Both the position numbers and the translations under genes were made by a program. A stretch of DNA of 64,000 bases from Cellulomonas fimi (GTDB lineage: Bacteria > Actinomycetota > Actinomycetes > Actinomycetales > Cellulomonadaceae), in assembly GCF_028583725.1 (NCBI RefSeq), contig NZ_CP110680.1:2480001-2544000 (forward strand), written 5' to 3'. The notes under the pieces are model-generated. The model did not search any database. It had not been told where the DNA came from and saw nothing but the letters and a program-made list of their open reading frames with translations. Below are positions 1,185 through 18,671 of this stretch, one piece after another (within the stretch, counting starts at the first letter, position 1; every line of letters begins with the position of its first letter).

Positions 1185-3224
1185 CTAGCGCCGACCAGCC
1201 GGGCCCGGTGCGGCGACGACCCGCGTGACGGGTGTCGACCCGGCGAACGGCCCGGGCACGACGTGATCCCGTGGGCTGCCGAAGAAGTCGCCGGTCAGGT
1301 CCAGGTCGGAACCGTCGGGATCGGTCCACGGCATCTCGGCCTGGTAGCTCGTCCCGAGCCGTGCGGTCGTCACCGGGGCGACCGCGTCGACGTCGCCCAG
1401 GTCGTCGGTTGCGACGCGGACGGTGCCCGCCTCCGCGTCGACCACCTCGACGCGCACCGGTGACGTGCCGACCACGAGGGGCGTCGGCTCCGCGCGGAAG
1501 GGCTCGGCGCCCTCCGCGTAGAGGTTGCCCTCGCTCCACACCGGGAGCCGCGGCCCGGCCAGATCGCTCCCGGGCTCGGCCGGGTACTCCTGTGGCGTCG
1601 GGCAGGCGTCGTACTGCGACGTGCCCACGGGGGTCGGCACGAACGTCGCCCGGCCGGGCACGCCGTCCATGTCGACCGCGCCGGACCAGAAGCTCGCGAG
1701 CGCCGGACCCGCCTGCGCGTCCGACCCGGTCGGTCCGCTGGTGGCACCGTCACCGACGAAGACGTTGTTGTAGAACCGGTCGTCGCCGCCGAGGATGTTC
1801 GAGACGCCGTAGACCGCCGTCGAGTGCGGCAGGTGGTACGGGGTGTACCGCTGGTGCTCGGTGCAGCTCGCGAAGCGTCCCGCGACGTAGTTGTGCACGT
1901 ACGCGCCGCCGGTGGACATGTCCTTGACCGCCCACGGGGACAGGAACAGGTTCGAGTCCACGAGGTACGGGCCGTGGCAGACCTCGACCATGAAGTCCTC
2001 GGCGGTCGAGGCGTAGAAGACGTTCCGCCGCACCTGGGTGCCCTGCGCCTGCCAGTCGAGCCACAGCGCGCGGTGCGTGTGGTGGATCGTGTTGCCGCTG
2101 ATCACCGTGTCGATGGCGGCGTGCAGCTTGATCCCCGCCACCTCCGCGCCGTGCCACTGGCGCTTCACGTGGATGCGCGAGATGTGGTTGTCGGCGATGG
2201 TCGAGAACGCCGCCCCCAGGTGCCCGACGACGCCCGCCTGCTCGCAGTCCCGGATCGTGTTGCGGCGCACGGTGTGGGAGCCGACGTGGTCCCGGTGCCA
2301 CGGCTGCGGCTCGCCCGCTGCCGGTCCGCCGAGGACGAGTGCCCGCTGGATGACCTCGCGCTCGCGCTGCGTGCCGCCCTTGGCGCCGTCCGGTCCCGCA
2401 GCCGCCTCGTTCTGACCGGTGCTCGCCTCCTTGCCGAGCGACACGCCGACGTTCTTCGAGTCGGTGATCGTGTTGTCCTCGATCACCCAGCCCTTCGACC
2501 AGTGCGGGCCGATCAGGCCTTCCTGCAGCGCGGTCGGCGGGGCCCACTGCGTGGCCGCCTTGGTCAGGGTGAACCCGCGCACCGTGATGTGGTCGATGCC
2601 GGTCCGGGCAGGCCAGAAGACGAACGTGCGCACGTTGATCTCGACCTCGTGCGCGGCCGGGTCGGCGCCCCCGAAGCTCGCCCAGATCGTCGTGACGTCG
2701 TCGCCCACCTCGCAGTACCAGGTCAGCAGCGAGCCGTCCGGGTCGGACGAGTCCGGTGTGACCTCGGGGTGCTCGACGCCGGCGAGCGTCAGCGACTCGT
2801 ACATCGACTTCCCGTCGAGGTACACCTCGCCCGTGTGCCAGGTGTTGACCCGGTCGAAGAACCAGTCCCCGCCGATGCGCTCCGCGTACGGGTTGCGCTC
2901 CCCGAACAGGACGTTCGGCACCTCCGCGACCCAGACGCGCCCCTCGGCGCCGGGGTGCGGACGCCAGTCGGTGACCACCTCGGCACCGGAGATCGTGACG
3001 GGCTCGAACCGCCCGTCCGGGCCGACCGCGGCCTGGTAGGTGATCGGCGCGTCGGCCGTGCCGCCGCGCGGCGGGTTCACCCACTCCCGGTACACGCCCT
3101 CGTGCACGGCGACGGTGTCGCCCGGCATGGCGGCCTGAGCGGCCCGGCCGATGGTCCGGAAGGGGGACTCGGCGGACCCGTCGGCACGGTCGGAGCCGGT
3201 GGTGGCGACGTGCAGGATGGTCAC
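1185..3224 (-). CDS. GH120 beta-xylosidase (right-handed beta-helix)
   Basis: This 679-residue protein matches, by recall, the GH120 beta-xylosidase XylC of Thermoanaerobacterium along its length: the N-terminal VATTGSD...PFRTI, VHEGVYREWVNPPRGG, GLIGPHWSKGWVIEDN, LWLDW and VEVCHGPYLVDSN blocks are all present. The two catalytic acids of the family correspond to Asp390 (LWLDW) and Glu414 (VEVCHGPY). The fold is a parallel beta-helix with an inserted domain. There is no signal peptide, so it should act in the cytoplasm, releasing xylose from imported xylo-oligosaccharides. It starts with GTG preceded by GAGAGG about 7 nt upstream, and lies 43 bp downstream of the YesL gene in the same direction as the ABC transporter, so it is probably the last gene of that operon. 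GH120 is a small family. Confidence 0.88.
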   Translation of the reverse strand: MTILHVATTGSDRADGSAESPFRTIGRAAQAAMPGDTVAVHEGVYREWVNPPRGGTADAPITYQAAVGPDGRFEPVTISGAEVVTDWRPHPGAEGRVWVAEVPNVLFGERNPYAERIGGDWFFDRVNTWHTGEVYLDGKSMYESLTLAGVEHPEVTPDSSDPDGSLLTWYCEVGDDVTTIWASFGGADPAAHEVEINVRTFVFWPARTGIDHITVRGFTLTKAATQWAPPTALQEGLIGPHWSKGWVIEDNTITDSKNVGVSLGKEASTGQNEAAAGPDGAKGGTQREREVIQRALVLGGPAAGEPQPWHRDHVGSHTVRRNTIRDCEQAGVVGHLGAAFSTIADNHISRIHVKRQWHGAEVAGIKLHAAIDTVISGNTIHHTHRALWLDWQAQGTQVRRNVFYASTAEDFMVEVCHGPYLVDSNLFLSPWAVKDMSTGGAYVHNYVAGRFASCTEHQRYTPYHLPHSTAVYGVSNILGGDDRFYNNVFVGDGATSGPTGSDAQAGPALASFWSGAVDMDGVPGRATFVPTPVGTSQYDACPTPQEYPAEPGSDLAGPRLPVWSEGNLYAEGAEPFRAEPTPLVVGTSPVRVEVVDAEAGTVRVATDDLGDVDAVAPVTTARLGTSYQAEMPWTDPDGSDLDLTGDFFGSPRDHVVPGPFAGSTPVTRVVAAPGPAGRR

Positions 3225-3965: not shown

Positions 3966-4928
3966 TCAGCCCTTCACGGAGCCGATCATGAGACCGGACA
4001 CGAAGTGCTTCTGCAGGAACGGGTAGACGAGCAGGATCGGGACCGCCGCCACCATGGTGATCGCCGACCGCAGCGCGATCGGTGTCGTGAGCTGCCCGCC
4101 GCTCCCCACGGACGCCGCGTTGCCCGCGACGTTCGCGGAGTTCGCGCCGGCGTTCATCGAGCTCGCGAGCAGCTTCTGCAGCTCGTACTGCAGCGTGGAC
4201 AGCGCCTGGTCGCCCGAGTTGTACAGCAGGGTGTCGAGCCACGCGTTCCAGCTGCCGACCGCCACGAACAGGCCCACCACGGCCAGCGCGGGCTTGCACA
4301 GCGGCATGATGATCTGCCACCACGTGCGGAACTCCCCCGCACCGTCGACCCGGGCCGACTCGGTGATCTCGTCGGGGATCGACTTCATGTACGTGCGCAG
4401 GATGATGAGGTTGAACGCGCTGATGATGACCGGCACCCAGTAGGCCTGGAAGCTGTTCAGCATGCCCAGGTCCTTGATGAGCAGGTAGTTGGGGATCAGC
4501 CCGGCGTCGAAGTACAGCGTCAGCACGAAGACCAGGGTGATCGGGCGGCGGAAGATGAACTCCTTGCGGCTGAGCGCGTAGGCGAGCATCGAGGTGAAGA
4601 AGAGGTTGGTCACCACCACGACGACCGTCTTCAGGACGCTCATGAAGAACGCCTGGTAGATCGTGTTCATGTTGAGCACGACCTCGTAGTTCTGCAGCGA
4701 GAAGACCCGGGGCCAGATGCCGATCCCGCCCCGGACGGCGTCCATGCCGTCGTTGAGGGAGATCGCGAGCGTGTTCAGCAGCGGGTAGATCATCAGCGCG
4801 GCGAGCGCCACGAGGAAGGTCGTGTTGAGCGTCGTGAAGATGACCCGCTCGGCCGTCCACCGTCGACGCGGTGACCTGGTCCGGGGTGCTCGCCGCGCCA
4901 GGGCCTTCGGGGCAAGGGTGCTTGTCAT
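3966..4928 (-). CDS. Carbohydrate ABC transporter permease (LplC/YtcP type)
   Basis: The protein has 320 residues and six predicted membrane helices after a basic cytoplasmic N-terminus (APKALARRAPRTRSPRRR). The cytoplasmic EAA-type loop is visible at ESARVDGAGEFRTWWQIIMPL (about residues 212-232), the docking site for the ATPase. It is the second permease of a CUT1 sugar importer. Its ATG lies 9 bp after the stop codon of the first permease, and its Shine-Dalgarno AGGAG overlaps that stop, so translation is likely coupled. No ATPase gene lies nearby; a shared MsiK-type ATPase encoded elsewhere is expected for actinobacterial CUT1 systems. Confidence 0.9.
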   Translation of the reverse strand: MTSTLAPKALARRAPRTRSPRRRWTAERVIFTTLNTTFLVALAALMIYPLLNTLAISLNDGMDAVRGGIGIWPRVFSLQNYEVVLNMNTIYQAFFMSVLKTVVVVVTNLFFTSMLAYALSRKEFIFRRPITLVFVLTLYFDAGLIPNYLLIKDLGMLNSFQAYWVPVIISAFNLIILRTYMKSIPDEITESARVDGAGEFRTWWQIIMPLCKPALAVVGLFVAVGSWNAWLDTLLYNSGDQALSTLQYELQKLLASSMNAGANSANVAGNAASVGSGGQLTTPIALRSAITMVAAVPILLVYPFLQKHFVSGLMIGSVKG

Positions 4929-4937
4929 GAAGTTCTC

Positions 4938-5990
4938 CTAGACCAGCGTCTCTTGGTTGAGGCGTTTCGCCGCCCAGTTCGCCGAGCCCACCAGGATGAT
5001 GGCGACGAGGGTCTTGAAGATGCCCGCGACGACGGCGAGGTCGTAGTTGCCCAGCTGGTAGCCGTAGCGGAGCACGAAGACGTCGATGGTCTCGGCCCGC
5101 TCGGAGATCAGGCCGTTGCCGAGGAAGTACGGCAGCTCGAAGTTCGTGGACAGGATCCAGCCGGCGTTGATGATCAGCAGCACGACGATCGTGGGCCGGA
5201 TCCCCGGCAGCGTGATGTTCCACATCTTGCGGTAGCGGCCTGCCCCGTCGACCTCGGCGGCCTCGTACAGGCTCGGGTCGATCGCGGTGATCGCCGCCAG
5301 GTAGAGGATCGTGTTCCAGCCGAGCTCCTTCCACAGGCTCGTCCCGGCGACGATCCCCCAGAAGTGGTTCGGCTCGGTCAGGAACAGGACCGGTTCCTGG
5401 ACCAGTCCCACAGCCATGAGCGCCTGGTTGATGAACCCGCCCGAGGAGGGCAGCGAGAGCGCCACCGACGCCAGGCTCGCGACGATCACCCAGCTGAGGA
5501 AGTGGGGCATGTACGTGATGTTCTGCATGATCCGCTTGAACGGGGCGTTCTTGACCTCGTTCAGCAGCAGCGCCAGGACGATGGCCCCCAGGGTCCCGAC
5601 GACGAGCGTCAGGACCGACTGACCCACCGTGTTGATCACGACCCGGCGGAACCGTTCACCGTTGACGCCGGTGAAGAGGTCGACGAAGTTCTCGAAGCCG
5701 ACCCACTCCTGGTTCCAGATGCTGCCGCGACCCGGCTTGTAGTCCTGGAAGGCGATCGCCCAGCCGTAGACCGGGACGTACTTGAACAGGATCTGGTACA
5801 TCAGCAGCGGGACGGCCATCGCGAGCAGGACCCGCTGGGCCCAGATCCTGTCCCAGGTGATCTTGCGCCGGGGCTCCTTCGGTGCTCGTGCCCGGGCCTT
5901 GCGGCGCGGAGCACGCGAGCCGCTCGCGGGCTCCTGGGCCGGTTCGAGCCCGGTGGCGGCCACAAGCGTGGTGACCGTGGTGTCCGTCAT
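4938..5990 (-). CDS. Carbohydrate ABC transporter permease (LplB type)
   Basis: The protein has 350 residues. A long Arg/Lys-rich cytoplasmic N-terminus (about 25-50) is followed by LplB-like helices, with MYQILFKYVPVYGWAIAFQDYK near residues 70-90. The EAA loop is at YEAAEVDGAGRYRKMWNITLPG. The start at 5990 (MTDTTV) was preferred over the open frame upstream because the latter runs through the intergenic hairpin and is low-complexity. With the binding lipoprotein and the second permease it forms an oligosaccharide importer; arabinoxylo-oligosaccharides are the likely cargo given the surrounding hydrolases. Confidence 0.9.
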   Translation of the reverse strand: MTDTTVTTLVAATGLEPAQEPASGSRAPRRKARARAPKEPRRKITWDRIWAQRVLLAMAVPLLMYQILFKYVPVYGWAIAFQDYKPGRGSIWNQEWVGFENFVDLFTGVNGERFRRVVINTVGQSVLTLVVGTLGAIVLALLLNEVKNAPFKRIMQNITYMPHFLSWVIVASLASVALSLPSSGGFINQALMAVGLVQEPVLFLTEPNHFWGIVAGTSLWKELGWNTILYLAAITAIDPSLYEAAEVDGAGRYRKMWNITLPGIRPTIVVLLIINAGWILSTNFELPYFLGNGLISERAETIDVFVLRYGYQLGNYDLAVVAGIFKTLVAIILVGSANWAAKRLNQETLV

Positions 5991-6028
5991 CTGTCCAACC
6001 TCGTCGTCGCCGAGCAGTGGGGCGTCGT

Positions 6029-6071
6029 CGAGGACGCGTGGTGAGGCCGCACGCCCCACCACGCGTCCTCG
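6029..6071 (-). terminator. 15-bp hairpin between binding-protein and permease genes
   Basis: Arms 6029-6043 and 6057-6071 pair perfectly around a 13-nt loop, between the stop of the solute-binding protein (6079) and the permease start (5990). Hairpins here are classic in binding-protein operons, where attenuation or 3'-end protection yields more binding protein than membrane subunits. Confidence 0.7.
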
Positions 6072-6078
6072 CGCACTG

Positions 6079-7791
6079 TTACCAGTTCTCCAGGCGGTCC
6101 TGGATGCCGGCGTTGATGGCGTCCTCGTACACCTCGACGTCGATCTTTCCGATGGCGTCGACGTAGGCCTTCCAGCTCGCCTCGAAGTCGGCCGGGTCAC
6201 CGGCGATGATCTTCGGCAGGTTCTGCACGTTGGCGTCGGTCAGCTGCTGGTTGACCTCGTTGGCCTCGTCGGAGAGCGTGATGTTCCACGCCGGGTAGTA
6301 CTTGGGGTTCTCCGGCTGCGGGTTCATGAACTCGAGCCAGGTCTTCTTGCCGTACTGCTCCATGACGCCTCGGTCGTACTCGGTCAGCGTCGCGAAGAAC
6401 TCCGCGGGCTGGTCGTCGGGGCTGTACGCGTTGCCGTCGGAGAACTGGCCGTTGTGCTTGGGCAGCACGTCGAGCAGCGCCTCGAGGCGGTTGGAGGCAC
6501 GCCAGGTCAGGTCACGGGCGTTGGCCCGCTGCTCCTCGGTGCGGGTGAACATCCCGTCCTCGCCGACCTGGTAGTCCTCGCCCTCGACGCCCCACGAGAG
6601 CACCTTCTGCCAGGGCTCGCTGAGCATCAGGTCGAGGAACTTCATCGCCTTCTCCGGCTGCTTGCTCGAGACGGAGATGCCGAAGCCCTGGTTGGTGTTC
6701 ATCACGGGACGGTCGGCGTACCACGGCTCCGCGCCGTCGTAGACGGGCATGAGCGGCACGTAGGTGTACTCGTCCTTGCCGGCGCTCCGCAGCGAGTCGG
6801 TGGCGGTCTGGAAGTTCCAGCCCTGGTCGTGCATGCCGAGGACGGCGCCGGTGGCCAGCTTCGCGGTGTACTGGTCGAACGTCAGGGTGAACGACTCGCG
6901 GTCGACGATGCCGGCCTTGTACTGCTCGTTGAGGACCTTGTAGAAGTCCTTGGCGATGTCCTTGTCGGCGTAGATCTCCGCGTGGTCGTCGTCGTCGACG
7001 ATGACGCCGCCGTTGTTCGGGGAGCCGGCCAGCAGCGCCGGCGGGTTGGTCATGCCCCACTCACGGCCGGTCGACGCCAGGACCTCGAAGCCGACGGTCG
7101 GGGCGCCGTCGGTCTGGGGGTTCTTCGCCTTGAAGTTCGCGATGAGCTCGAAGTAGCGCTCGAGCGTCATGTTGCTGAGGTCCGGCCAGCCGGCGTCCTC
7201 GAGCACACGCTTCTGGATCCAGAACGCGGGACCGTAGTAGGTGCCGCCCGTGACCTCGCCGTAGAAGCGGTTGTAGTTCGGGAAGATGTACAGGCCCGGG
7301 TCCACCTCCTCGCCCGAGTAGCTCATCTTCTTGATGTCGTCCTCGACGTGCGTGGCGAGGTTGGGATAGTCCCCGCTCTCCAGCATGTCGTCCAGGCGCA
7401 GGAGGGCGCCGCCCTCCAGGAGACGCATCTTCAGGTCGGTGGTCCCGATCAGGTCGGGGTACTCACCGCCCGCGAGCATGACGCCGATCTTCTGGTCGAC
7501 GGCGTCCGGCGTGACGATCTCGTACTTCAGGGTGACGCCGAGGTTCTCCTCGAGCAGCTTGGTGATCTTGTTGTCGGGGGCCGGGGCCTGCGAGGCCGTG
7601 GTGATCCAGGTCGTGAGCGTGGTCGGGTTGCTGGGGGTCAGGGTCCCCGACTTGTCCGCGAGGTCGCCCTCGGGGATGACGACGTCCTTCGGGTCCTTCT
7701 CGGCGGCGTCGCCCGAGGTACACCCGACCAGTCCCACTGACACAGCTGCCACGAGGACGAGAGCTGACAACTTCGTTCTTGCGGTACGCAC
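6079..7791 (-). CDS. Extracellular sugar-binding lipoprotein (LplA-like)
   Basis: This is a 570-residue lipoprotein with a short basic N-terminus, hydrophobic core and lipobox VGLVGC (Cys near residue 21). The mature part is a large type-I solute-binding protein like LplA/YtcQ, the usual partner of the two permease types downstream. The GTG start at 7791 has a GGGAGA ribosome-binding site and gives the correct lipobox distance. It is the first gene of the leftward operon, and a LacI-type palindrome lies about 100 bp upstream (7889-7900). The substrate is inferred from context to be (arabino)xylo-oligosaccharides. Confidence 0.9.
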   Translation of the reverse strand: MRTARTKLSALVLVAAVSVGLVGCTSGDAAEKDPKDVVIPEGDLADKSGTLTPSNPTTLTTWITTASQAPAPDNKITKLLEENLGVTLKYEIVTPDAVDQKIGVMLAGGEYPDLIGTTDLKMRLLEGGALLRLDDMLESGDYPNLATHVEDDIKKMSYSGEEVDPGLYIFPNYNRFYGEVTGGTYYGPAFWIQKRVLEDAGWPDLSNMTLERYFELIANFKAKNPQTDGAPTVGFEVLASTGREWGMTNPPALLAGSPNNGGVIVDDDDHAEIYADKDIAKDFYKVLNEQYKAGIVDRESFTLTFDQYTAKLATGAVLGMHDQGWNFQTATDSLRSAGKDEYTYVPLMPVYDGAEPWYADRPVMNTNQGFGISVSSKQPEKAMKFLDLMLSEPWQKVLSWGVEGEDYQVGEDGMFTRTEEQRANARDLTWRASNRLEALLDVLPKHNGQFSDGNAYSPDDQPAEFFATLTEYDRGVMEQYGKKTWLEFMNPQPENPKYYPAWNITLSDEANEVNQQLTDANVQNLPKIIAGDPADFEASWKAYVDAIGKIDVEVYEDAINAGIQDRLENW

Positions 7792-7888
7792 CGAGGTCTC
7801 TCCCTTGAGAACAGTTCCGGTCGTCCTTGACGGGAACCCGTGCAGATCGGACGCGAGCGGGGGCTCGGCGTCCTCATCCCGGCGGGAT

Positions 7889-7900
7889 TTTAGCGTTAAA
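7889..7900. promoter_or_regulatory. LacI-family operator TTTAGCGTTAAA
   Basis: This is a 12-bp palindrome with one mismatch and a central CG, the hallmark of LacI-family sites. It lies about 97 bp upstream of the sugar-binding protein gene in an otherwise GC-rich stretch. The adjacent LacI regulator is the likely ligand. Confidence 0.65.
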
Positions 7901-8024
7901 GTAGAGACGTGCTCACGAGCCGTCAAGCCCTTGCACGTCTCGGAATGATCACGGCCCGTCCCCACGCGGCGCCCTGCCGGACGCTCGGTCGAGGCCATGC
8001 GGAGGGGGCCTTGCCGTCCGCGGT

Positions 8025-8036: not shown

Positions 8037-8123
8037 TTGAGCGCCCTCGGCAGCGTGGCCGGGCCCTTCGGCCCCGGCGAGCGCACGCTTGACTGGCAAG
8101 ATGCCGCGGCAAGGAGGATGCGC

Positions 8124-9128
8124 ATGGTGCGGATGGCGGACGTGGCGCGCGCGGCCGGCGTCTCGGTCATGACCGTGTCCAACGTCCTCAACGAGCGTCT
8201 CCCCGTCGGCGAGCCCACGCGCGCCCGCGTCATGGCGGCCGTCGAGGCCCTCGGGTACGAGGTCAACCTGACGGCGCGGCACCTGCGGGCCGGACGGACC
8301 GACACCGTCGCGTTCGTCGTCCCGAGCTTCCACGACTACTTCGGCGAGCTCGCCGACCACCTGGCCCCGCTGGTCGAGGCGGAGGGGCGTCACCTCGTCC
8401 TCGAACGGACGAGCGCCAACGCCGAGCAGGAGATGGAGGCGCTGAGCGTCGCACGGCTCCAGATCTACGACGGCGTCGTGCTGTCCGTCGCGGGTCTGGA
8501 CCTGGAGCAGCTGGCGCGCGTGCGCACGTCCAAGCCGATCGTGCTGCTGGGCGAGCGCGACGTCCCCGACCACCTCAACCACGTGCGCCTCGCGAACGAG
8601 TCGGGCGCCCGCCTCGCCACGGCGCACATGATCGAGCGCGGATCCCGCCGCATCGTCGCGCTCGGGTGCTCGTTCGACGGCGCGCACATGATGACCACGG
8701 ACCGCCGCGCCGGGTGGGAGCACGCGTACGACGAGGCCGGCCTCGCGGCCGACCCGGCCTACGTCGTGCCCGTCAGCGACTACACGTCCACCGGGGCGCG
8801 CGACGCGATGCTCGAGTTCGTCGCCACCGGCCTCCCCTTCGACGGGGTCTTCGCCGTCACCGACATCGTCGCCCTCGGGGCGCTGTCCGCCCTGGTGGAC
8901 AGCGGGCTGCGGGTCCCCGACGACGTCCAGCTCGCCGGGTTCGACAACCTCGACATGTCCCGCTTCGTCCCGCCGGGCATCACGTCGGTCGACGCGAACC
9001 ACGAGGGCGTGGCCGAGGCCGCGATCGGGCTGCTGCACCGCCAGATGTCGGGCTGGACCGGTCCCGCCGAGCACGTCGTCGCCCCCGTCCGCCTCGTGGT
9101 CCGCGGATCCACCCGCGGCGGCGCCTAG
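8124..9128 (+). CDS. LacI-family transcriptional regulator of the xylan locus
   Basis: The protein has 334 residues. The N-terminal helix-turn-helix ([20 protein letters not shown], residues 4-23) and hinge are followed by a periplasmic-binding-protein-like ligand domain (about 60-330). The AAGGAGG at 8111-8117 sits 6 nt before the ATG at 8124, which decides the start over the open frame running back to 8037. It stands between the transporter arm and the hydrolase arm. Family knowledge suggests a repressor released by a xylo- or arabino-oligosaccharide; the actual inducer is not shown by sequence. Confidence 0.9.
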
Positions 9129-9193
9129 CCACACCCACGCGAGCACCTGTCCGCGCCACTTACGTCGCCACCCGGTCGAAGGAGACCCATCCC

Positions 9194-10738
9194 GTGAGCA
9201 CCCCTGCGCCTGCGCCTGCCCGCACGACAGCGATCATCGACCTCGACCTGCCCGGTGCGACGATCAGCCGGCACGTGTACGGGCACTTCGCGGAGCACCT
9301 CGGCCGGTGCATCTACGGCGGGTTCTGGGTGGGAGAGGACTCCCCCGTCCCGAACGTGCGCGGGATCCGGTCCGACGTCGTGGCGGCGCTGCGCGCCCTG
9401 CAGATCCCGAACCTGCGCTGGCCGGGCGGCTGCTTCGCCGACGACTACCACTGGCGCGACGGGATCGGCCCGCGCGACCAGCGGCCCCGGATGGTCAACT
9501 CGCACTGGGGCGACGTCGTGGAGGACAACGCGTTCGGCACCCACGAGTTCATGGACCTGTGCGAGCTGCTCGGGGCGGACCCGTACGTGTCGGGGAACGT
9601 CGGGTCCGGCAGCGTCGCGGAGATGTCGGACTGGGTCGAGTACCTGACGCGGGCCGACGACTCGCCGATGGCGGCGCTGCGCCGGGCGAACGGGCGCGAC
9701 GAGCCGTGGCGAGTGCCGTTCTGGGGGTTGGGGAACGAGGCGTGGGGGTGCGGCGGGAACCTGCGCGCGGAGCAGTTCGCGTCGCTGGCCCGGCAGTACG
9801 CCACGTACTCGCGCGACCACGGCGGCAACGCGCTGTACCGGATCGCGGCGGGCGCGAACGAGTCGGACCTGCACTGGACCGAGACGCTCATGCGGTCGTT
9901 CGACGACCTGGCCGCCGACCCGGCCGAGCCGGCCCGGCCCTTCCAGGCCGTGTCGCTGCACTACTACACGATGTCGGGCACGTGGGGCGACAAGGGCGAC
10001 GCCACCGGCTTCAGCACGGACGAGTGGTACACGACGATGGCCCGGGCCCGCCGCATGGAGGAGCTGCTCACCCGCCACTCGACCGTGATGGACCGGTACG
10101 ACCCGCACCGCAAGGTGGGCCTGGTCGTCGACGAGTGGGGCACCTGGTGGAACGTGGAGAAGGGCACCAACCCGGGGTTCCTGTACCAGCAGAACACCCT
10201 GCGCGACGCGCTGGTCGCCTCCGTGCACCTCGACGCGTTCCACCGGCACGCCGAGCGGGTCGTGATGGCGAACATCGCGCAGACCGTCAACGTGCTGCAG
10301 GCGATGGTCCTGACGGATCCGGACACGGGCGCGCTGGTGCTCACCCCGACGTACCACGTGTTCGCGATGAACGCCGCGCACCACGACGCGGCCGCGCTCG
10401 CCGTGCACCTGCGCGACGTGGAGACCCGGACCGTCGACGGGACCGAGCTGCCGCTGGTCTCGGCGTCCGCGTCGGTCAAGGGCGACGCCGCGCTCGTCTC
10501 GTTGTCGAACCTCGACGCCGGCACCGACCGCACGGTCGTGCTCGACCTGCGCGGCCGCGACGTCGTCGGGCACGAGGCACGGGTGCTGACCGCGCCCGCC
10601 CTGGACGCGCACAACACCCCGGAGCAGCTCGACGCCGTCGCGCCGGCCGCGCACGAGGGCGTGCGGCCCCACGCGCGCGGGCTCGAGGTCGACCTCCCCG
10701 CCCACTCCTACGTCACCGTCAGCCTCGGGCTCCGTTGA
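9194..10738 (+). CDS. GH51 alpha-L-arabinofuranosidase
   Basis: The protein has 514 residues, a normal length for GH51. The acid/base Glu is in GNEAWG (Glu182) and the nucleophile in VDEWG (Glu314). The family landmarks [17 protein letters not shown] and the C-terminal beta-sandwich are present. It should remove arabinofuranosyl side chains from arabinoxylan oligosaccharides. There is no signal peptide. GTG start with GAAGGAG about 9 nt upstream. Its stop codon overlaps the ATG of the GH43 gene by one base, so the two are translationally coupled. Confidence 0.93.
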
Positions 10739-12399
10739 TGGGACCGGGCGACCGGGCGCTCGCCGTCGCACGCCCGGTCATCTTCGCGGACGTCCCCGAC
10801 CCGGACGTCGTCCACGACGGCCGGCACTACTACATGGTCAGCACGACCATGTACTTCGCGCCGAGCGTGCCGATCATGCGCTCGAGCGACCTGGTGCACT
10901 GGACGGTCGCCGGCTACACCGGCCCGATCCTCGACGACACCGACGCGCTCGCCCTCCGACACGGGGAGAACGCCTACGGGCAGGGCACCTGGGCCGCGAG
11001 CATCCGCTACCACGAGGGCACGTACTACGTCTCGGTCGGCAGCCTGACCACGCAGCAGACGTACGTCTACGCGACGCCGAGCATCGAGGACGGGCCGTGG
11101 ACGAGGTCGGTCCTCGACGGCTACGCCCACGACCAGTCGCTCCTGTTCGACGACGGCGACGCCTACCTCGTCTACGGGGCCGGGGTGATCGACCTGCGCC
11201 GCCTCGCCCGGGACGACGCCCAGGCCTTCGTCTGGGACGGCCCGGCGACGCGGCTCGTCGACCACGCGAGCGTCGACCAGACGGGCGGGCTGGCCGCCGA
11301 GGGCGCGCACGCCTACCGGATCGGCGACCACTACTACGTCTTCATGATCCAGTGGCCGACCGGCGGGATCCGCCAGGAGGTCGTGTGGCGGTCGACGTCG
11401 CTGACGCCGCAGTCCGAGGGCGGGACCTGGGAGGGCAGGGTCGTGCTCCGCCAGGCGGTCCCGGTCGCGGGGCGCCCGGGGGGCGGCGTCGCCCAGGGCG
11501 GCGTCGTCCAGGCGGCCGACGGGCAGTGGTACGCGATGCTCTTCCAGGACGAGGGGCCGCTCGGTCGCTCACCGCAGCTGGCGCGCGTGACCTGGGACGA
11601 GGACGGGTGGCCGGTCTACGCTCTCGACGCCACGGTCTCCGCGGGCGCGCGCGCAGGCGGCCTACGAGGCGAAGGAGGAGCGTCGTCGGCGGGAGCGACG
11701 GACCTCCTCGTCTCGGACGACTTCGACAACCTGCCCACGGCCGCCGGCTACTGGAACACCGCCGATGCCGGCGGCCTGACGACGTCGGACGAGAACGCCT
11801 GGAACGGGTCGAACCTCGGGCTGACGTGGCAGTGGAACCACAACCCCGACAACCGCTTCTGGTCGCTCACCGACCGCCCCGGCCGCCTGCGGCTGACCAC
11901 GGGCAGCATCGCGACGGGCATCCTCGACGCCCGCAACACGCTCACCCAGCGCACGTGCGGGCCTGCGAGCGCCGCGGCGATCTCGCTGGACGTCGCCGCG
12001 ATGAAGGACGGCGACGTCGCCGGCCTGTCCGCGTACCAGCAGAAGTACGGGTACGTGGCGGTCGAGGTGGCCGGCGGCGCCCGCCGGCTCGTGATGCGCC
12101 GTGCCGATCGGCGGGGTGACGTCACCTTCACCAGCGCTCCTGTGCCGTTGACGGCCACGACGGTCCTGCTCCGGGTGGACGTGGACTTCTGCGACGCCGT
12201 CGACCGCGCCTCGTTCGCGTACTCGCTCGACGGTGCCGCGTGGACGCCGATCGGTGACGACCTGGCGATGGAGTACAGCCTCGACCACTTCACCGGGTAC
12301 CGGTTCGCGATCTTCTGCTACGCCACGGCCGAGACCGGCGGGCACGTGGACGTCGACTGGTTCCGGGTCGGCGACGACATCGAGGGGACGACGTCATGA
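10738..12399 (+). CDS. GH43 beta-xylosidase / arabinofuranosidase with C-terminal beta-sandwich
   Basis: The protein has 553 residues. The N-terminal five-bladed propeller has the three GH43 acids: base Asp21 (PDPDVV), pKa-modulating Asp132 (HDQS) and acid Glu188 (AAEGAHAY). A linker at about 300-320 leads to a concanavalin-like beta-sandwich (about 320-550; DDFDNL...WQWNHNPDNRFWSL), typical of the xylosidase/xylanase-like GH43 branch. No signal peptide is seen. It overlaps the preceding gene by 1 nt and the next by 4 nt (ATGA), so all three hydrolases are co-translated. It probably cleaves xylosyl or arabinosyl linkages in imported oligosaccharides. Confidence 0.9.
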   Translation: MGPGDRALAVARPVIFADVPDPDVVHDGRHYYMVSTTMYFAPSVPIMRSSDLVHWTVAGYTGPILDDTDALALRHGENAYGQGTWAASIRYHEGTYYVSVGSLTTQQTYVYATPSIEDGPWTRSVLDGYAHDQSLLFDDGDAYLVYGAGVIDLRRLARDDAQAFVWDGPATRLVDHASVDQTGGLAAEGAHAYRIGDHYYVFMIQWPTGGIRQEVVWRSTSLTPQSEGGTWEGRVVLRQAVPVAGRPGGGVAQGGVVQAADGQWYAMLFQDEGPLGRSPQLARVTWDEDGWPVYALDATVSAGARAGGLRGEGGASSAGATDLLVSDDFDNLPTAAGYWNTADAGGLTTSDENAWNGSNLGLTWQWNHNPDNRFWSLTDRPGRLRLTTGSIATGILDARNTLTQRTCGPASAAAISLDVAAMKDGDVAGLSAYQQKYGYVAVEVAGGARRLVMRRADRRGDVTFTSAPVPLTATTVLLRVDVDFCDAVDRASFAYSLDGAAWTPIGDDLAMEYSLDHFTGYRFAIFCYATAETGGHVDVDWFRVGDDIEGTTS

Positions 12400-15074
12400 C
12401 GGGACGACTGGTGCCGGAGCTCGAGGCGCGTCGGCACCTCATCGAGGGCTACGCGGAGCTGCCGCAGGTCCCCGAGGCGGTCGTCGCGCGCTGGAAGGCA
12501 CCGTTCGGGCCGCCCGAGGACTGGGACCTGACCGTGGTCGACCAGGTGCTTCCCGGCCCGCACGGCCCGGTGCCCGTGCGCGTCTACACGCCGATGGGCA
12601 CGCCGCCCGAGGGCGTCCGACCGTGCCTCGTCTGGATGCACGGCGGCGCGTTCTCGTGGGGCGACCTCGACATGGCGGAGGCGCACGAGGTCGCCCGCGG
12701 GATCGCCGGCCGCGCGGACGCCGTCGTCGTGTCGGTCGACTACCGCCTGTGCCCGGTGATGCCCGAGCTCGGTGGCAGCGTCGGCGACCGCGTCGACGAG
12801 CGCGGTGCGCCGGTCCGGTTCCCCGTCCCGCAGGACGACTGCCTCGCCGTGCTCGATGCCGTGCGCGCGGACCCGGCACGCTTCGGCGTCGACGCGGCCC
12901 GGATCGCCGTCGGCGGGGCGAGCGCGGGGGCCTTCCTCGCGGCGGCCGCGACCCTGCGCACCGTCGCGGAGGGCCGTGCGCCCTGGCAGACGCTGCTGGT
13001 GTACCCGATGCTGCACCCCCGGGTACCGGCCCTCGGGCCCGAGCTCGCCGCGGCGGTCCAGGCCGCACCGCGCGCGCTCCAGTTCCCGGCGTGGATGGTC
13101 GAGGCCACGAACCGCACGGCGCTCGGCCGCGAGCCCGAGCCGTCCGACGACGACGTCTTCCCCGGACTCGCGGCCCGTCTCGAGGGCTTCCCGCCCACCT
13201 ATGTGGAGAACGGGGAGCTCGACGCGTTCCGGGCGAGCGGCGAGCTCTTCAGCACACGCCTGCGCGCAGCGGGCGTCGACGTCGTCGAGGTGACGCGGGC
13301 GGGCGTGCCGCACGGCCACCTCGACTGGGTGGGGTTCGGGCCCGCACGGGACACCCTGGACGCTCTCGCTGAGCGGATGCGTGCACCACGTCGACCAGAG
13401 GAGATCTCCATGCCGCACGACGCGCGTGCGCTCGACGCGCTACGAGTGGACGGCGTGCCCGCGTCGGACGCGCCGCTGCACCACGTGTGGAACCGGTGCG
13501 TGGGCGCGGGCCGGGCCAACGAGGCGCTGCGCGCCGACTGGCAGGCCCACTTCCGCGAGGCCGTGGACGTGCTGGGGGTCCGCTCCGTGCGGTTCCACGG
13601 GCTGTTCCACGACGACATGTTCGTGTACCGCGCCACCTACGGCGGCGGCTTCGCCCCGCCGGAGGTGCTGCCCGAGCCGCAGATCACCTTTAGCTACGTC
13701 GACATGGTGTTCGACGCGATCCTCGACGCGGGCGCGCGCCCGTTCGTCGAGCTCGGGTTCATGCCCCGGGAGCTCGCCACGCAGACCGAGACGCTGTTCT
13801 GGTGGAAGGCGCACTGCAGCCCGCCCACCGACATGGCGGAGTGGGTCCGCCTCGTGAGCGAGACCGTGCGGCACTGGATCGAGCGGTACGGCCTCGACGA
13901 GGTCCGCGAGTGGCGGTTCGAGGTGTGGAACGAGCCCAACCTCGTCCCCCACTTCTGGACCGGCACCCGCACCGAGTACTTCGAGCTGTACGAGGCCACC
14001 GCGCGCGCCCTGAAGGCGATCGACCCGCAGCTCCGGGTCGGAGGCCCGTCGACGTCCGTGTTCGTGCCCGACACCCGCTACGCCGGCGAGACCTACGACC
14101 GCGCGGCCGAGTTCGCCACCGGCCAGGCACCGGACCCCGACGCGCTCGACTGGCAACCGGTCTGGGTCCGCGAGCTCGTCGACTGGTGCGCGGAGCGGGA
14201 CCTCCCGCTCGACTTCCTCTCGACCCACCTCTACCCGACGGACTACGCCGCCGACGGGACCGGCAGCGGCTTCACGGCCATCCACCGCCACGTGGACGCC
14301 ACCGAGCAGGACCTGCGCCTCATGCGGGAGCTCATCGCCGCGAGCCCGTACCCCGACGCCGAGCTGCACATCACCGAGTGGTCCAGCTCGCCGTCGAGCC
14401 GGGACCGCACGCACGACACCCTCTTCGCCGCCACGTACATCACGCGCGCGTTCCTCAAGGGGGCCGCGCTCGCGGACTCGATCTCCTACTGGACGTTCAC
14501 CGACATCTTCGAGGAGGGCGGCGCCGGCCTCGGCCCCTTCCACGGCGGCTTCGGGTTCGTCACCGAGCAGGGCATCCACAAGCCCACGTTCCACGCCGTC
14601 GCGATGCTGAACCGCCTCGGCGACCGCGTCGTGCACCAGGACGAGCAGGGCGTCATCACGCGCTCCTCCGCCGACGGCCGCGTGTCTGCCGTGTTCCTCA
14701 ACTACCCCGCCGCGATGGGCACCCGCGGCGTCGAGCAGCACGACTCCTACGCCGCGACGCGCGCGTACCGGGAGATCGGGACGTCCCGACGGGTCCGGCA
14801 CACCGTCACGGGCATCGCGCCGGGGACCGTCTTCCAGGTCGAGGTGATCGACTGGGAGCACGGCAACGCCGCCGAGGCGTGGCACCAGATGGGCGAGCCG
14901 CTCAACCTCACGCGCGCCCAGACCGCCGAGCTCAAGGCCGTCGCGGACGACCTGCACCGGTGGACGATCACCGTCCCGGAGTCGGGCGTCCTCGAGCTCG
15001 ACCTCGACCTGCCGGCCTGGGCCGTCGCCTCCGTCACCCCGGTCATCGCCTCGGCGGCGGCCGGAGCACCCTGA
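12396..15074 (+). CDS. Fused alpha/beta-hydrolase esterase and GH39 beta-xylosidase
   Basis: This is a single open frame of 892 residues. Residues 1-335 are an HSL-type alpha/beta hydrolase with oxyanion HGG (His82-Gly-Gly), nucleophile elbow GASAG (Ser176), Asp276 and His306, probably a deacetylase acting on acetylated xylo-oligosaccharides. Residues 339-892 are a full GH39 beta-xylosidase with acid/base Glu513 (WNEPN), nucleophile Glu661 (ITEWSS) and a C-terminal beta-domain. There is no stop codon between the halves. A strong Shine-Dalgarno AGAGGAG (13397-13403) lies 6 nt before an in-frame ATG at 13410, residue 339, exactly where a free-standing GH39 would start. So either a fusion, a separate GH39, or both may be made. 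The gene overlaps GH43 by 4 nt. Confidence 0.88.
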   Translation: MTGRLVPELEARRHLIEGYAELPQVPEAVVARWKAPFGPPEDWDLTVVDQVLPGPHGPVPVRVYTPMGTPPEGVRPCLVWMHGGAFSWGDLDMAEAHEVARGIAGRADAVVVSVDYRLCPVMPELGGSVGDRVDERGAPVRFPVPQDDCLAVLDAVRADPARFGVDAARIAVGGASAGAFLAAAATLRTVAEGRAPWQTLLVYPMLHPRVPALGPELAAAVQAAPRALQFPAWMVEATNRTALGREPEPSDDDVFPGLAARLEGFPPTYVENGELDAFRASGELFSTRLRAAGVDVVEVTRAGVPHGHLDWVGFGPARDTLDALAERMRAPRRPEEISMPHDARALDALRVDGVPASDAPLHHVWNRCVGAGRANEALRADWQAHFREAVDVLGVRSVRFHGLFHDDMFVYRATYGGGFAPPEVLPEPQITFSYVDMVFDAILDAGARPFVELGFMPRELATQTETLFWWKAHCSPPTDMAEWVRLVSETVRHWIERYGLDEVREWRFEVWNEPNLVPHFWTGTRTEYFELYEATARALKAIDPQLRVGGPSTSVFVPDTRYAGETYDRAAEFATGQAPDPDALDWQPVWVRELVDWCAERDLPLDFLSTHLYPTDYAADGTGSGFTAIHRHVDATEQDLRLMRELIAASPYPDAELHITEWSSSPSSRDRTHDTLFAATYITRAFLKGAALADSISYWTFTDIFEEGGAGLGPFHGGFGFVTEQGIHKPTFHAVAMLNRLGDRVVHQDEQGVITRSSADGRVSAVFLNYPAAMGTRGVEQHDSYAATRAYREIGTSRRVRHTVTGIAPGTVFQVEVIDWEHGNAAEAWHQMGEPLNLTRAQTAELKAVADDLHRWTITVPESGVLELDLDLPAWAVASVTPVIASAAAGAP
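13397..13412 (+). promoter_or_regulatory. Internal ribosome-binding site and ATG inside the fusion gene
   Basis: AGAGGAG at 13397-13403, six bases, then ATG at 13410-13412, in the same frame as the upstream esterase. It is positioned to initiate the GH39 half independently. Confidence 0.6.
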
Positions 15075-15159: not shown

Positions 15160-16410
15160 TCAGGGGCCCTTGAAGCCGTACAGTGCGCCCGGGTTGAGGA
15201 ACTGCCGCCGCCACAGGAAGTCGCGCTCTGCGGCGGTCAGCTCGGCAAGGTCGGCGGCGTCGTGCCAGTCCTCCTCGATGGTCGTCACGAGGTGGCCGAC
15301 GATGTCCTCGGCTCGCGGCCGGTCGAGGTGGTACTGGTGCGCCACAGACACCAGGCGCGCGACGTTCGCCTCGCGATCCCCGGCGGCGGAGTACGCGAGC
15401 GCGACGTGCGCCGTCTCGCCGGAACGCGACGAGGGGCTCAGGTCATAGGCGGGCGTCAGGCTCAGGTGCTCGCCGTCCCAGAACGCGGCGTGGTTGCGCG
15501 CGTGGTCGTCGGTGTTCGAGATCAGCATGTTGAACGCGATGCGTTCGAACAGCATGGGGCCGATGGCGTCGCCGGTGCCGCCGCGAGCCAGAGCCTCGCG
15601 GATGTCGCCGTACGTGACGTAGCGCGCCTCGGCCTCGCGCAGCCCCGTGAAGGTCAGCGCGGTGACGACCATCCGGCGCGCGCCGGTGCCGGTGCGGTCG
15701 AACCGATCGGCGGCCAGCGCGTAGCGCCCAGAGACGCGGATGACGCGGGCGGCGGGCACGTCGATGCCTGCGCGTCGGGCGAGCTCGACAGCGGCACCCT
15801 CCGCCTTGACGACGGGGAACGGGTCGTCGGAGACGGCGAGCTTGACGATCGACTCGCGACCCTCGTAGCGCAGGTACGCCTTCGGGCGCGCGCCGCCGAT
15901 GCCGGTGCCGGAGTCGAGCGCGGCACGCAGGTCCGGGCTCAGATCCCGGCCCGCTTCGAGCGCGGTCGCGGCGTCGTAGACCTTCGCGAGGTCGGCGTGC
16001 GAGTCGCCACGCGGCACGTACTGCTCGGCGGATCGCTGGAAGTCCAGCGCGCCCACACGGTTCGAGGCGGACTCCAGCAGGTAGGTCATCTCGTCGAGGT
16101 CGTCGGTGTCGACGTTGCGGCCGCGACGGTGCATGAGCCGGTCCATGAGCACGCGACGTCCCCACGCGTCTGGCGCCGCGTCACGGATGCTCGGCGCGAC
16201 GACCCACCCGTCGGGCGGCGCGGTGTATCCGTCGGTGAACGGCAGCCCGTACAGGGCGACGGCGCCCGGCGAGGCGAGGTAGCGGCGGCCGTAGGCGAAC
16301 GACAGGCGCCCGTCGGGGCCGCGCCGTAGCAAGCCGACCGCGACGGGCTCGGTCTGCCCTGGCAGCCACGCCCAGACGTAGGCGAGGTCAGAAGTCGAGC
16401 TCACGGTCAT
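15160..16410 (-). CDS. hipA: HipA-family serine/threonine kinase toxin
   Basis: The protein has 416 residues, a normal HipA length. The N-terminal HipA_N region (YVWAWLPGQTEPVAVGLL...FTDGYTAPP) is followed by the kinase-like fold. Family landmarks include GIGGARPKAYL (ATP loop, about 170-180), ADRFDRTG (about 235) and the catalytic/metal region NMLISNTDDHARNHAAFWD with AYDLSPS (about 285-320). HipA proteins phosphorylate targets such as glutamyl-tRNA synthetase and cause growth arrest. Its ATG overlaps the 3' end of the antitoxin gene by 23 nt. The module lies between two GH39 3' ends. Confidence 0.88.
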   Translation of the reverse strand: MTVSSTSDLAYVWAWLPGQTEPVAVGLLRRGPDGRLSFAYGRRYLASPGAVALYGLPFTDGYTAPPDGWVVAPSIRDAAPDAWGRRVLMDRLMHRRGRNVDTDDLDEMTYLLESASNRVGALDFQRSAEQYVPRGDSHADLAKVYDAATALEAGRDLSPDLRAALDSGTGIGGARPKAYLRYEGRESIVKLAVSDDPFPVVKAEGAAVELARRAGIDVPAARVIRVSGRYALAADRFDRTGTGARRMVVTALTFTGLREAEARYVTYGDIREALARGGTGDAIGPMLFERIAFNMLISNTDDHARNHAAFWDGEHLSLTPAYDLSPSSRSGETAHVALAYSAAGDREANVARLVSVAHQYHLDRPRAEDIVGHLVTTIEEDWHDAADLAELTAAERDFLWRRQFLNPGALYGFKGP

Positions 16411-16741
16411 TCTCCGGGGCGACGGGGCGTACGGGGTCGACGCGACGCGGCAGCAGTGAGCGGATCGCCGCGGCGTGCGCGGCGGTGCGGCGGGCCTCCT
16501 CGGTGTCGTTGATGCCGAACATCGGGATGTCGAGGATCGAGGCTGCGTGGAGCACGATGCCGACCGAGACAGCGGGTGAGCCCTTCTCGATGGCGGCGAC
16601 CGTGTTGACCGACGTTCCGATGCGCGACGCGAGGTCTACCTGGCGCCAGGAACGCTCGATCCGGGCCTCGCGGACCAGGTCGCCGAGCACGTCCAGCCAC
16701 GCCTCGGTGCGCCGATCCACGCCCACTCGTTTGCGACCCAT
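16388..16741 (-). CDS. hipB: HipB-family helix-turn-helix antitoxin
   Basis: The protein has 117 residues. A Cro/C1-type helix-turn-helix is visible (WRQVDLASRIGTSVNTVAAIEKG, about 32-54); the C-terminus is longer than classical HipB. It should bind and neutralise HipA and repress the operon. I chose the ATG at 16741, preceded by GGGGATGGA; a GTG at 16768 is possible but would start only 3 nt after the putative -10 box TAGTGT (16772-16777). Inverted CCCCAATA(C/G)T sites flank that promoter. Confidence 0.83.
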   Translation of the reverse strand: MGRKRVGVDRRTEAWLDVLGDLVREARIERSWRQVDLASRIGTSVNTVAAIEKGSPAVSVGIVLHAASILDIPMFGINDTEEARRTAAHAAAIRSLLPRRVDPVRPVAPENDRELDF

Positions 16742-16748
16742 CGTCCAT

Positions 16749-16794
16749 CCCCAATAGTCGGCGGTCACCGCACACTACACCCATAGTATTGGGG
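16749..16794. promoter_or_regulatory. hipBA promoter with inverted CCCCAATA(C/G)T operators
   Basis: CCCCAATAGT at 16749-16758 and its inverted counterpart AGTATTGGGG at 16785-16794 (9 of 10 matching) flank a minus-strand TAGTGT -10 box at 16772-16777. The layout fits HipB autorepression by looping or cooperative binding. Confidence 0.6.
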
Positions 16795-16865
16795 GCGACA
16801 CCGGCCTGGTTCTCCGCAGGGGCACTGCGCTCTTCGGCGCACAGCTCGCTGCGAACGGACCGCGC

Positions 16866-17077
16866 CACTCCGACGCCGCGACGCGCGCGAGCCGCTCAAC
16901 CTCACGCGCGCCCAGACCGCCGAGCTCAAGACCGTCGCGGACGACCTGCGCCGGTGGACGGTCACGGTGCCGGAGTCGGGCGTCCTCGAGATCGACCTCG
17001 ACCTGCCGGCCTGGGCCGTCGCCTCTGTCGCGCCGGTCACCCCCGCGACGGTCGCCCGCGCTGCTGCGGGACGGTGA
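16866..17077 (+). pseudogene. Degenerate second copy of a GH39 3' end
   Basis: Positions 16887-17039 align without gaps to 14893-15045 of the GH39 gene, with roughly nine differences in the first 145 bases by eye, then diverge and end in TGA (17075-17077). Just before it, 16866-16889 resembles bases 14745-14765 of the same gene, so about 130 bp are missing between, and the junction shifts the frame. It has no start codon and no upstream catalytic part, so it is a remnant. The substitutions change residues (Ala-Thr, His-Arg, Ile-Val), suggesting a diverged paralogue rather than a recent duplication. Confidence 0.8.
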
Positions 17078-17444: not shown

Positions 17445-18671
17445 ATGGCCGAGGCGACCGGCACCGGGAGCAAGGGGCTGACCGGCCCGACCAACCCGGC
17501 GGCCCGCAAGGTGGCAGGCGCGCGACGCAACCCCAGCGTGTACGGCGCGGAGCACACGGCCCCGCACTGGCTGCGCGTGATGGCGGGCGTGTCGTGGCGG
17601 CTGCTCGTCGTACTCGCGGCGGTGGCGCTCGTGTTCTACGCCACGTCCCGGGTGCAGCTGCTGTTCATCGCCGTGTTCCTCGCGTTCGTCTTCTCCGCCG
17701 TGCTGCGCCCGATCGTCGACTTCCTGTCGCGGTTCATGTGGCGCGGGCTCGCGACGGCGCTCGCGATCCTCGGCGGCATCCTGTTCTTCGTCGGGCTGCT
17801 CACGTACATCGGGTACTCGATCGCGAACCAGTGGACCGACCTCACGAAGCAGTTCAGCGACGGCATCTCGCAGATCACCGACTTCCTGCAGAGCGGGTCG
17901 CTGCCGTTCACGATCACGAACGAGCAGATCGCCGAGTGGATCAGCAACGCGCAGCAGTGGGTGCAGGACCACGCGGGCGACCTTGCGTCGCAGGCCGCCG
18001 CGGGCGCGGGCTCGGTCGTCGAGATCTTCACCGCGCTCGCGCTCGCGATCTTCTGCACGGTGTTCTTCCTGGCGCGCGGCCAGGAGATGTGGACGTGGTT
18101 CCTCAACCAGCTGCCCACGCGGTTCCGGGAGACCTGGAAGGTCGCGGGCGGCGCCGGCTGGTACACGTTCTCCGGCTACACGCGCGGCACCGTGATCATC
18201 GCCGTCACCGACGGCCTGCTCGCGTTCATCCTGCTGACGATCCTGCAGGTGCCGCTCTCGGCGCCGCTCGCGGTGCTCGTCATGATCGGTGCGTTCATCC
18301 CGCTGGTCGGCGCCCCGGCCGCGATGATCGTCGCGATGATCGTCGCGCTGGCCGCGAACGGGCTGTGGTCCGCCGCGATCGTCGGCGTCGGCATCGCGCT
18401 CATCGGGCAGTTCGAGGGCCACATCCTGCAGCCGCTCGTCATGGGCAAGCAGGTGTCGCTGCACCCCGTGGTGGTCGCGCTCGCCGTGACGGCGGGCACG
18501 CTCACGGCCGGGATCCTCGGCGCGGTCATCGCGGTACCGCTGGTGTCCGTCGTCTGGGCGATCTTCTCCCGGCTGCGCACGCTCGACCCGCCCATGGAGG
18601 AGGACGAGGCCGACGACGAGGTGCGGCCCGCCACCGACGAGGACACCGCGACCACGCCCGCGCACGGCTGA
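17445..18671 (+). CDS. AI-2E family transporter (TqsA/PerM family) membrane protein
   Basis: The protein has 408 residues and about eight membrane helices, with the family layout: an N-terminal hairpin (LLVVLAAVALVFYATSRVQLLFIAVFLAFVFSAVLRP region), a central amphipathic domain, and C-terminal helices including VMIGAFIPLVGAPAAM and ALIGQFEGHILQPLVMGKQVSLHPVVV (the last is diagnostic). The tail is acidic and cytoplasmic. Members export autoinducer-2 or small solutes; the substrate here is unknown. GGGGGG precedes the ATG. The gene is monocistronic and convergent with the DapA-family gene. Confidence 0.88.
   Translation: MAEATGTGSKGLTGPTNPAARKVAGARRNPSVYGAEHTAPHWLRVMAGVSWRLLVVLAAVALVFYATSRVQLLFIAVFLAFVFSAVLRPIVDFLSRFMWRGLATALAILGGILFFVGLLTYIGYSIANQWTDLTKQFSDGISQITDFLQSGSLPFTITNEQIAEWISNAQQWVQDHAGDLASQAAAGAGSVVEIFTALALAIFCTVFFLARGQEMWTWFLNQLPTRFRETWKVAGGAGWYTFSGYTRGTVIIAVTDGLLAFILLTILQVPLSAPLAVLVMIGAFIPLVGAPAAMIVAMIVALAANGLWSAAIVGVGIALIGQFEGHILQPLVMGKQVSLHPVVVALAVTAGTLTAGILGAVIAVPLVSVVWAIFSRLRTLDPPMEEDEADDEVRPATDEDTATTPAHG

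Follow-up and report, generated by a model that had tools for sequence, protein, structure and literature searches.

Stand-alone GH39 beta-xylosidases such as the enzyme of PDB 2bs9, which we take to be XynB1 of Geobacillus, lack an esterase domain, and Est8 (PDB 4ypv), an esterase of the Abhydrolase-3 type, lacks a glycosidase domain. Both kinds of domain, in the order esterase then GH39, occur together in Celf_1744 (BxyF) of Cellulomonas fimi ATCC 484, which lies beside the GH43 gene Celf_1745. In the available part of their article, Kane and French (2018) listed Celf_1744 as 'GH39, alpha-beta hydrolase fold 3' and predicted it to be cytoplasmic (PMC5892457). According to the same part, Celf_1744 expressed in E. 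coli was a beta-xylosidase with a Vmax of 326 U/mg and a KM of 1.7 mM on ONPX, and no esterase assay of the enzyme appears in it (PMC5892457). A secretome study is cited there for induction on xylan, and the Celf_1744 locus tag is absent from the available main text of the secretome study PMC4780727. Geobacillus Axe2 offers a further parallel: the accessible part of PMC4194401 describes it as an intracellular acetylxylan esterase whose gene shares a xylo-oligosaccharide cluster with those of xylosidases, but Axe2 is the product of a separate gene and, judging from a title in the reference list of that paper, a GDSL hydrolase.

A fused esterase-GH39 gene and its operon

The window, that is, the whole stretch of 64,000 nucleotides analyzed here, carries a gene with the domain order of Celf_1744 (89% identical in the esterase and 93% in the GH39 part). 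The features discussed below are as follows.

1185..3224, minus strand: GH120-type gene, downstream in the divergent direction (profile match)
3966..7998, minus strand: divergent ABC sugar importer with two permeases and a solute-binding protein (profile matches)
8037..9128, plus strand: LacI-family regulator (profile match)
9134..10738, plus strand: GH51-type arabinofuranosidase, labeled from its Alpha-L-AF_C domain; the searched piece begins at 9134 and the real start may differ
10738..12399, plus strand: GH43 with a GH43_C2 domain (Pfam); its TGA (12397-12399) overlaps the esterase ATG (12396-12398)
12396..15074, plus strand: fused esterase-GH39 gene, 892 aa (open frame and Pfam matches)
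12396..13394, plus strand: HSL-type (Abhydrolase_3) esterase domain, residues 1-333, with Ser176, Asp276 and His306 (Pfam; AlphaFold2)
13395..13409, plus strand: junction, a remnant of the esterase tail and the intergenic spacer read as a short linker (junction comparison)
13399..13403, plus strand: AGGAG, most simply the inherited ribosome-binding site of a once separate GH39 gene (motif count and relatives' junctions)
13410..15071, plus strand: GH39 beta-xylosidase domain, residues 339-892, with Glu513 and Glu661; its ATG at 13410 is the probable ancestral start

The single frame runs from the start codon at 12396 to the stop codon at 15072-15074 with no internal stop. Abhydrolase_3 (PF07859) matched residues 1-338 of the fused protein with 120-124 bits (Pfam cut-off 25), and GH39 (PF01229) matched residues 339-892 with 326-329 bits (cut-off 26). 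The esterase half has HGG at residues 82-84, GASAG at 174-178 with Ser176, Asp276 and His306, and its GxSAG, Asp and His align with those of Est8, although the oxyanion motif reads HGGA in the window esterase and HGGG in 4ypv. The catalytic Ser, Asp and His were intact in all ten full-length clade esterases compared. Among the named NCBIfam HSL subfamilies, the window esterase fell below every cut-off, the best being LipP1 at 142.7 bits against 350. The GH39 half contains WNEPN at 511-515 (Glu513) and ITEWSS at 659-664 (Glu661); both glutamates align with the catalytic pair of 2bs9, and the Glu of WNEPN and that of ITE(W/Y) are presumably the acid/base and the nucleophile of GH39 enzymes. In an AlphaFold2 model, esterase residues 1-330 reached a pLDDT of 89-98 per 10-residue block. 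For the whole fusion the mean pLDDT was 67 and the pTM 0.50 (49 sequences), with a poor GH39 half, so the model was left unused for that half and for domain packing.

With an uninterrupted frame and both catalytic sites present, the gene has the make-up of a bifunctional fusion. A preliminary description of the sequence had proposed an in-frame fusion of a complete esterase and a complete GH39 xylosidase, and the frame, the Pfam matches and the motifs confirmed it. A protein with the same two-domain order, P0002, was also found among the best 120 of 587 database matches. The accompanying remark that this pairing was not known as a standard architecture did not hold, since it is already listed for C. 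fimi Celf_1744 in PMC5892457, the one article in the open-access literature searched that was found to name the fused gene.

On the plus strand the LacI-family regulator, the GH51-type gene, the GH43 gene and the fused gene follow one another, the GH43 stop and the esterase start overlapping in an ATGA (12396-12399), and the ABC importer and the GH120-type gene are divergent. No signal peptide was evident by eye at the N-terminus of the fused protein. Together with the cytoplasmic prediction for the C. fimi orthologue, this is most simply read as an intracellular xylo-oligosaccharide pathway. From the operon context, the esterase half is a putative acetyl xylan esterase. The fusion product would remain in the cytoplasm, where the esterase half would strip acetyl groups from imported xylo-oligosaccharides, its presumed substrate, and the GH39 half would release xylose, with the two halves possibly cooperating. 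The product is thus most likely a cytoplasmic deacetylase-xylosidase acting on imported acetylated xylo-oligosaccharides. For the bifunctionality that the preliminary description had proposed, the xylosidase part has published support from the C. fimi orthologue in the available part of PMC5892457, and the esterase part is suggested by the intact motifs.

Downstream of the fused gene, a hipBA-type pair (15160-17051, minus strand) separates the 3' end of the GH39 from a partial repeat of that end, 165 bp long and 92% identical, that runs on into an AI-2E transporter region (gene at 17445). The HipA has a scattered distribution: relatives occur in 14 of the genus's 81 genomes, the window's included, and the best other is 57% identical. 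At the same place, C. septica (L121) carries different cargo and a repeat of 285 bp (91%). There, the distal tail and flank match C. algicola at about 95% identity, whereas the final 117 bp of the proximal copy match C. algicola and HM71 at only 82-85%, which suggests that the cargo arrived with a foreign GH39 end.

The junction among relatives

Among 81 Cellulomonas genomes including the window's, 11 had the GH39 at 89% identity or more, and with a locus from a Promicromonosporaceae MAG (L037) they gave 12 loci for comparison. Esterase and GH39 were fused in frame in four of these, namely the window, BIN39 (G087), C. chitinilytica (G020) and C. fimi ATCC 484 (G008), and the junction differed in each. 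In six loci (C. algicola, C. septica, HM71, C. alba, G025 and L037) the two genes were split, with a stop codon and a distance of 52-121 bp from one matched end to the other. The remaining split locus, G065 (L124), encodes a 202-aa esterase in which an in-frame internal deletion has removed the Ser nucleophile. In C. gelida (L123) the esterase is absent, and GH43 and GH39 form one frame through the former esterase-GH39 spacer. Within the best 120 of 587 database matches, P0002 (10 member sequences) represents a fifth fused esterase-GH39 junction, known as a protein only, and P0004 (27 member sequences) is a GH43-GH39 protein. Elsewhere in these operons, the GH43 match is absent from C. alba (L125) and G025 (L126), in which a GH51-type gene directly precedes the esterase; in L037, GH43 matches in two frames (4338-5995) point to a frameshifted or misassembled gene.

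The spacer DNA is homologous among the split species, and each fused species has its own deletion in it. Measured from a landmark in the esterase to one in the GH39, the four fused loci span 96, 87, 114 and 75 bp (96 in the window) and the seven split loci 124-196 bp. Bases shared at the joins, read by eye from the alignment, are GCACC in the window, CGGA in C. chitinilytica and ACC in BIN39. In C. fimi ATCC 484 a different deletion extends into the GH39, which has lost its ribosome-binding site, start and initial codons. This region of the spacer is also shortened by deletions in HM71 and C. septica, but there a stop codon is kept; fusion is therefore only one outcome of such deletions.

The split state looks ancestral in this comparison, and fusion arose by in-frame deletion of intergenic DNA. 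The window gene is a derived fusion of two adjacent genes in a xylo-oligosaccharide utilization locus. As the comparison shows, a small deletion, whose ends by eye share a few bases, took the last codons of the esterase, its stop and most of the spacer, leaving the esterase in frame with the GH39. The spacer is deletion-prone, given congeners with different deletions, several of them producing in-frame fusions, and an esterase-less locus with a GH43-GH39 frame. A point mutation of the stop codon as the cause was ruled out by the spacer comparison.

The merger of two genes that the preliminary description had proposed is borne out by the closest relatives, in which orthologues are split and have both a stop and homologous spacer DNA. 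Its wording, loss of a stop codon, captured part of the event: the stop was lost along with the spacer, not alone (96 against 124-196 bp). It had also held that close relatives with a stop at the junction would speak against the fusion. The nearest relatives do have such a stop, but others are fused, at other junctions, and from these and the spacer comparison we regard the fusion as real and derived despite the split nearest relatives. A sequencing or assembly error is very improbable, as four separate assemblies show fusions, one of them the finished C. fimi ATCC 484 genome, and the spacers are tens of bases shorter, unlike a slip of 1-2 bases.

Number of fusion events

A housekeeping tree of gyrB, parE (the second, lower-scoring gyrB-model match per genome) and rpoB was built without the outgroup row out_G018, which was misplaced with a branch length of 10, and with BIN39 filled in 27% of the columns. 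In this tree the window was sister to three split species (100/100), C. fimi ATCC 484 fell outside the window and these three (100/100), and BIN39 and C. chitinilytica formed a further clade (100/100). A single clade of the four fused taxa was rejected by this tree (p-AU 8.7e-5), by the GH39+GH51 tree (p 6.6e-5) and by the GH39 tree (p 0.002), and was not rejected by the esterase-only tree (p 0.15). The operon trees were poorly resolved, and their outgroup row out_G064 is actually from locus L008 of genome G022.

Deletion nesting alone would allow the junctions of the window and BIN39, but not the C. fimi one, to derive from a junction like that of C. chitinilytica; the tree additionally sets the window apart. 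Unordered parsimony allowed a history of two changes, one fusion and one re-splitting. If lost spacer DNA cannot be regained, the tree calls for at least three fusions, and we consider at least three events likely from these comparisons, although the count could be lower if operon alleles have passed between species. We rejected a single ancient fusion followed by re-splitting on account of the homology among the split spacers and the failure of the fused taxa to form a clade, although one clade is compatible with the esterase-only tree. Collectively, the fusion is real, derived and probably recurrent; its architecture was already annotated in C. fimi, and what is new is the series of differing junctions.

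The seam and the internal GH39 start

The ATG at 13410 encodes residue 339, and the AGGAG at 13399-13403 sits 6 nt upstream of it, in agreement with the preliminary description. The two strands of the window together contain AGGAG-N6-ATG five times, where shuffled sequence would give 0.39, and split relatives have a similar motif upstream of their GH39. This excess and the relatives' motif indicate that the AGGAG at the seam is most simply the GH39 ribosome-binding site inherited from the separate gene.

The window could yield both the fusion and a free GH39 through internal initiation at ATG 13410, a possibility to which we give somewhat less than an even chance. The intact AGGAG-N6-ATG at 13399-13412, which resembles that of the split relatives, speaks for it; retention of the motif would be expected after any deletion ending upstream, and the motif is missing from C. 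fimi ATCC 484 and P0002. Across the distinct fused junctions, a free GH39, as proposed earlier, is compatible with three of five (window, BIN39 and C. chitinilytica), whereas the original GH39 start is gone in the other two (C. fimi ATCC 484, and P0002, known as a protein only), so the GH39 need not be made in free form. Some free enzyme may nevertheless come from the internal start, which is dispensable, given the two fused relatives that lack it.

Tolerated or selected fusions

Pairwise dN/dS values (seven pairs each) were 0.30-0.43 for the esterase, 0.29-0.47 for GH43, 0.11-0.22 for GH39 and 0.06-0.17 for GH51. These ratios indicate that all four genes are constrained, the esterase and GH43 less so; these two are also the genes that some relatives lack (C. 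alba and G025 have no GH43, C. gelida no esterase).

The fusions may be a neutral by-product of frequent small spacer deletions, tolerated without any benefit because both domains fold independently. We rate this reading just short of an even chance. It is consistent with the non-fusing deletions in HM71 and C. septica and with the loss or gutting of the esterase in two of the 12 loci. In simulated deletions with at least 3 bp of microhomology that lost the stop and kept the GH39 ATG, 221 of 556 were in frame, which makes three in-frame outcomes a chance of about 0.06. Against it, the stop-losing deletions found in genomes, at the four esterase-GH39 loci and in C. gelida, are all in frame. P0002 and P0004 are in frame too, but they came to light only because they are fused, and a junction that has lost the GH39 start has to stay in frame. 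With 221 of 556 simulated deletions in frame, the frame bias is weak, too weak for selection to be deduced from it.

Positive selection, by which tethering would speed the removal of acetylated ends or fix a 1:1 ratio, appears unlikely to us. It is favored by the likely occurrence of three or more fusions within a single small clade and by two junctions that lack an independent GH39 start, but the events are few, the frame bias is weak and six of 12 loci are still split. That the operon acts as a repeat generator of bifunctional enzymes, with selection for physically linking deacetylation to xylose release favoring in-frame outcomes, is similarly doubtful.

Distribution beyond the clade

In a sample of 396 genomes of the order (esterase E up to 1e-60, at most five candidates scored per genome; GH39 E up to 1e-100, at most three scored), esterase homologues were found in 21 genomes and GH39 in 15. 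Both genes occurred together in three of the 396, all Cellulomonas and with the genes adjacent. Wide conservation of the pair was not found among these genomes, indicating that the pair is clade-limited. When GH39 loci were examined with up to 6 kb of flanking sequence, nine of 80 showed an esterase match: seven upstream, in this clade, and two downstream on the same strand. In Xylanimicrobium pachnodae, a full-length intact esterase follows the GH39 in reverse order (69% identity, residues 1-329). In Micromonospora solifontis (L047, 7700-7891), the first 64 esterase residues (67% identical) lie 52 bp behind the GH39, followed by unrelated sequence; the remainder of the esterase is absent from this locus, so an intact reverse-order esterase was ruled out there. 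G058, G032 and G090 each have a related esterase (about 70% identical) behind a different GH51-like gene (27-29% identical).

Among the 120 listed database matches, eight of 15 JGI-named entries (P0127, P0138, P0139, P0142, P0144, P0145, P0153 and P0173) are stand-alone esterases named 'xylan 1,4-beta-xylosidase', a name perhaps carried over from the fused proteins.

Implications

The overall explanation, a fusion derived by deletion whose product is likely a cytoplasmic deacetylase-xylosidase, is in our judgment quite probable. If the operon did prove to be a repeat generator, esterase and GH39 would have fused at least three times and GH43 and GH39 at least once, independently and by small deletions, with the stages coexisting as split genes, shortened spacers, fusions with the old start and fusions without it. 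The loci offer a graded natural series in which small deletions turn adjacent operon genes into one bifunctional enzyme, a change that probably happened repeatedly within a single clade, and they point to a candidate esterase half within an already characterized xylosidase.
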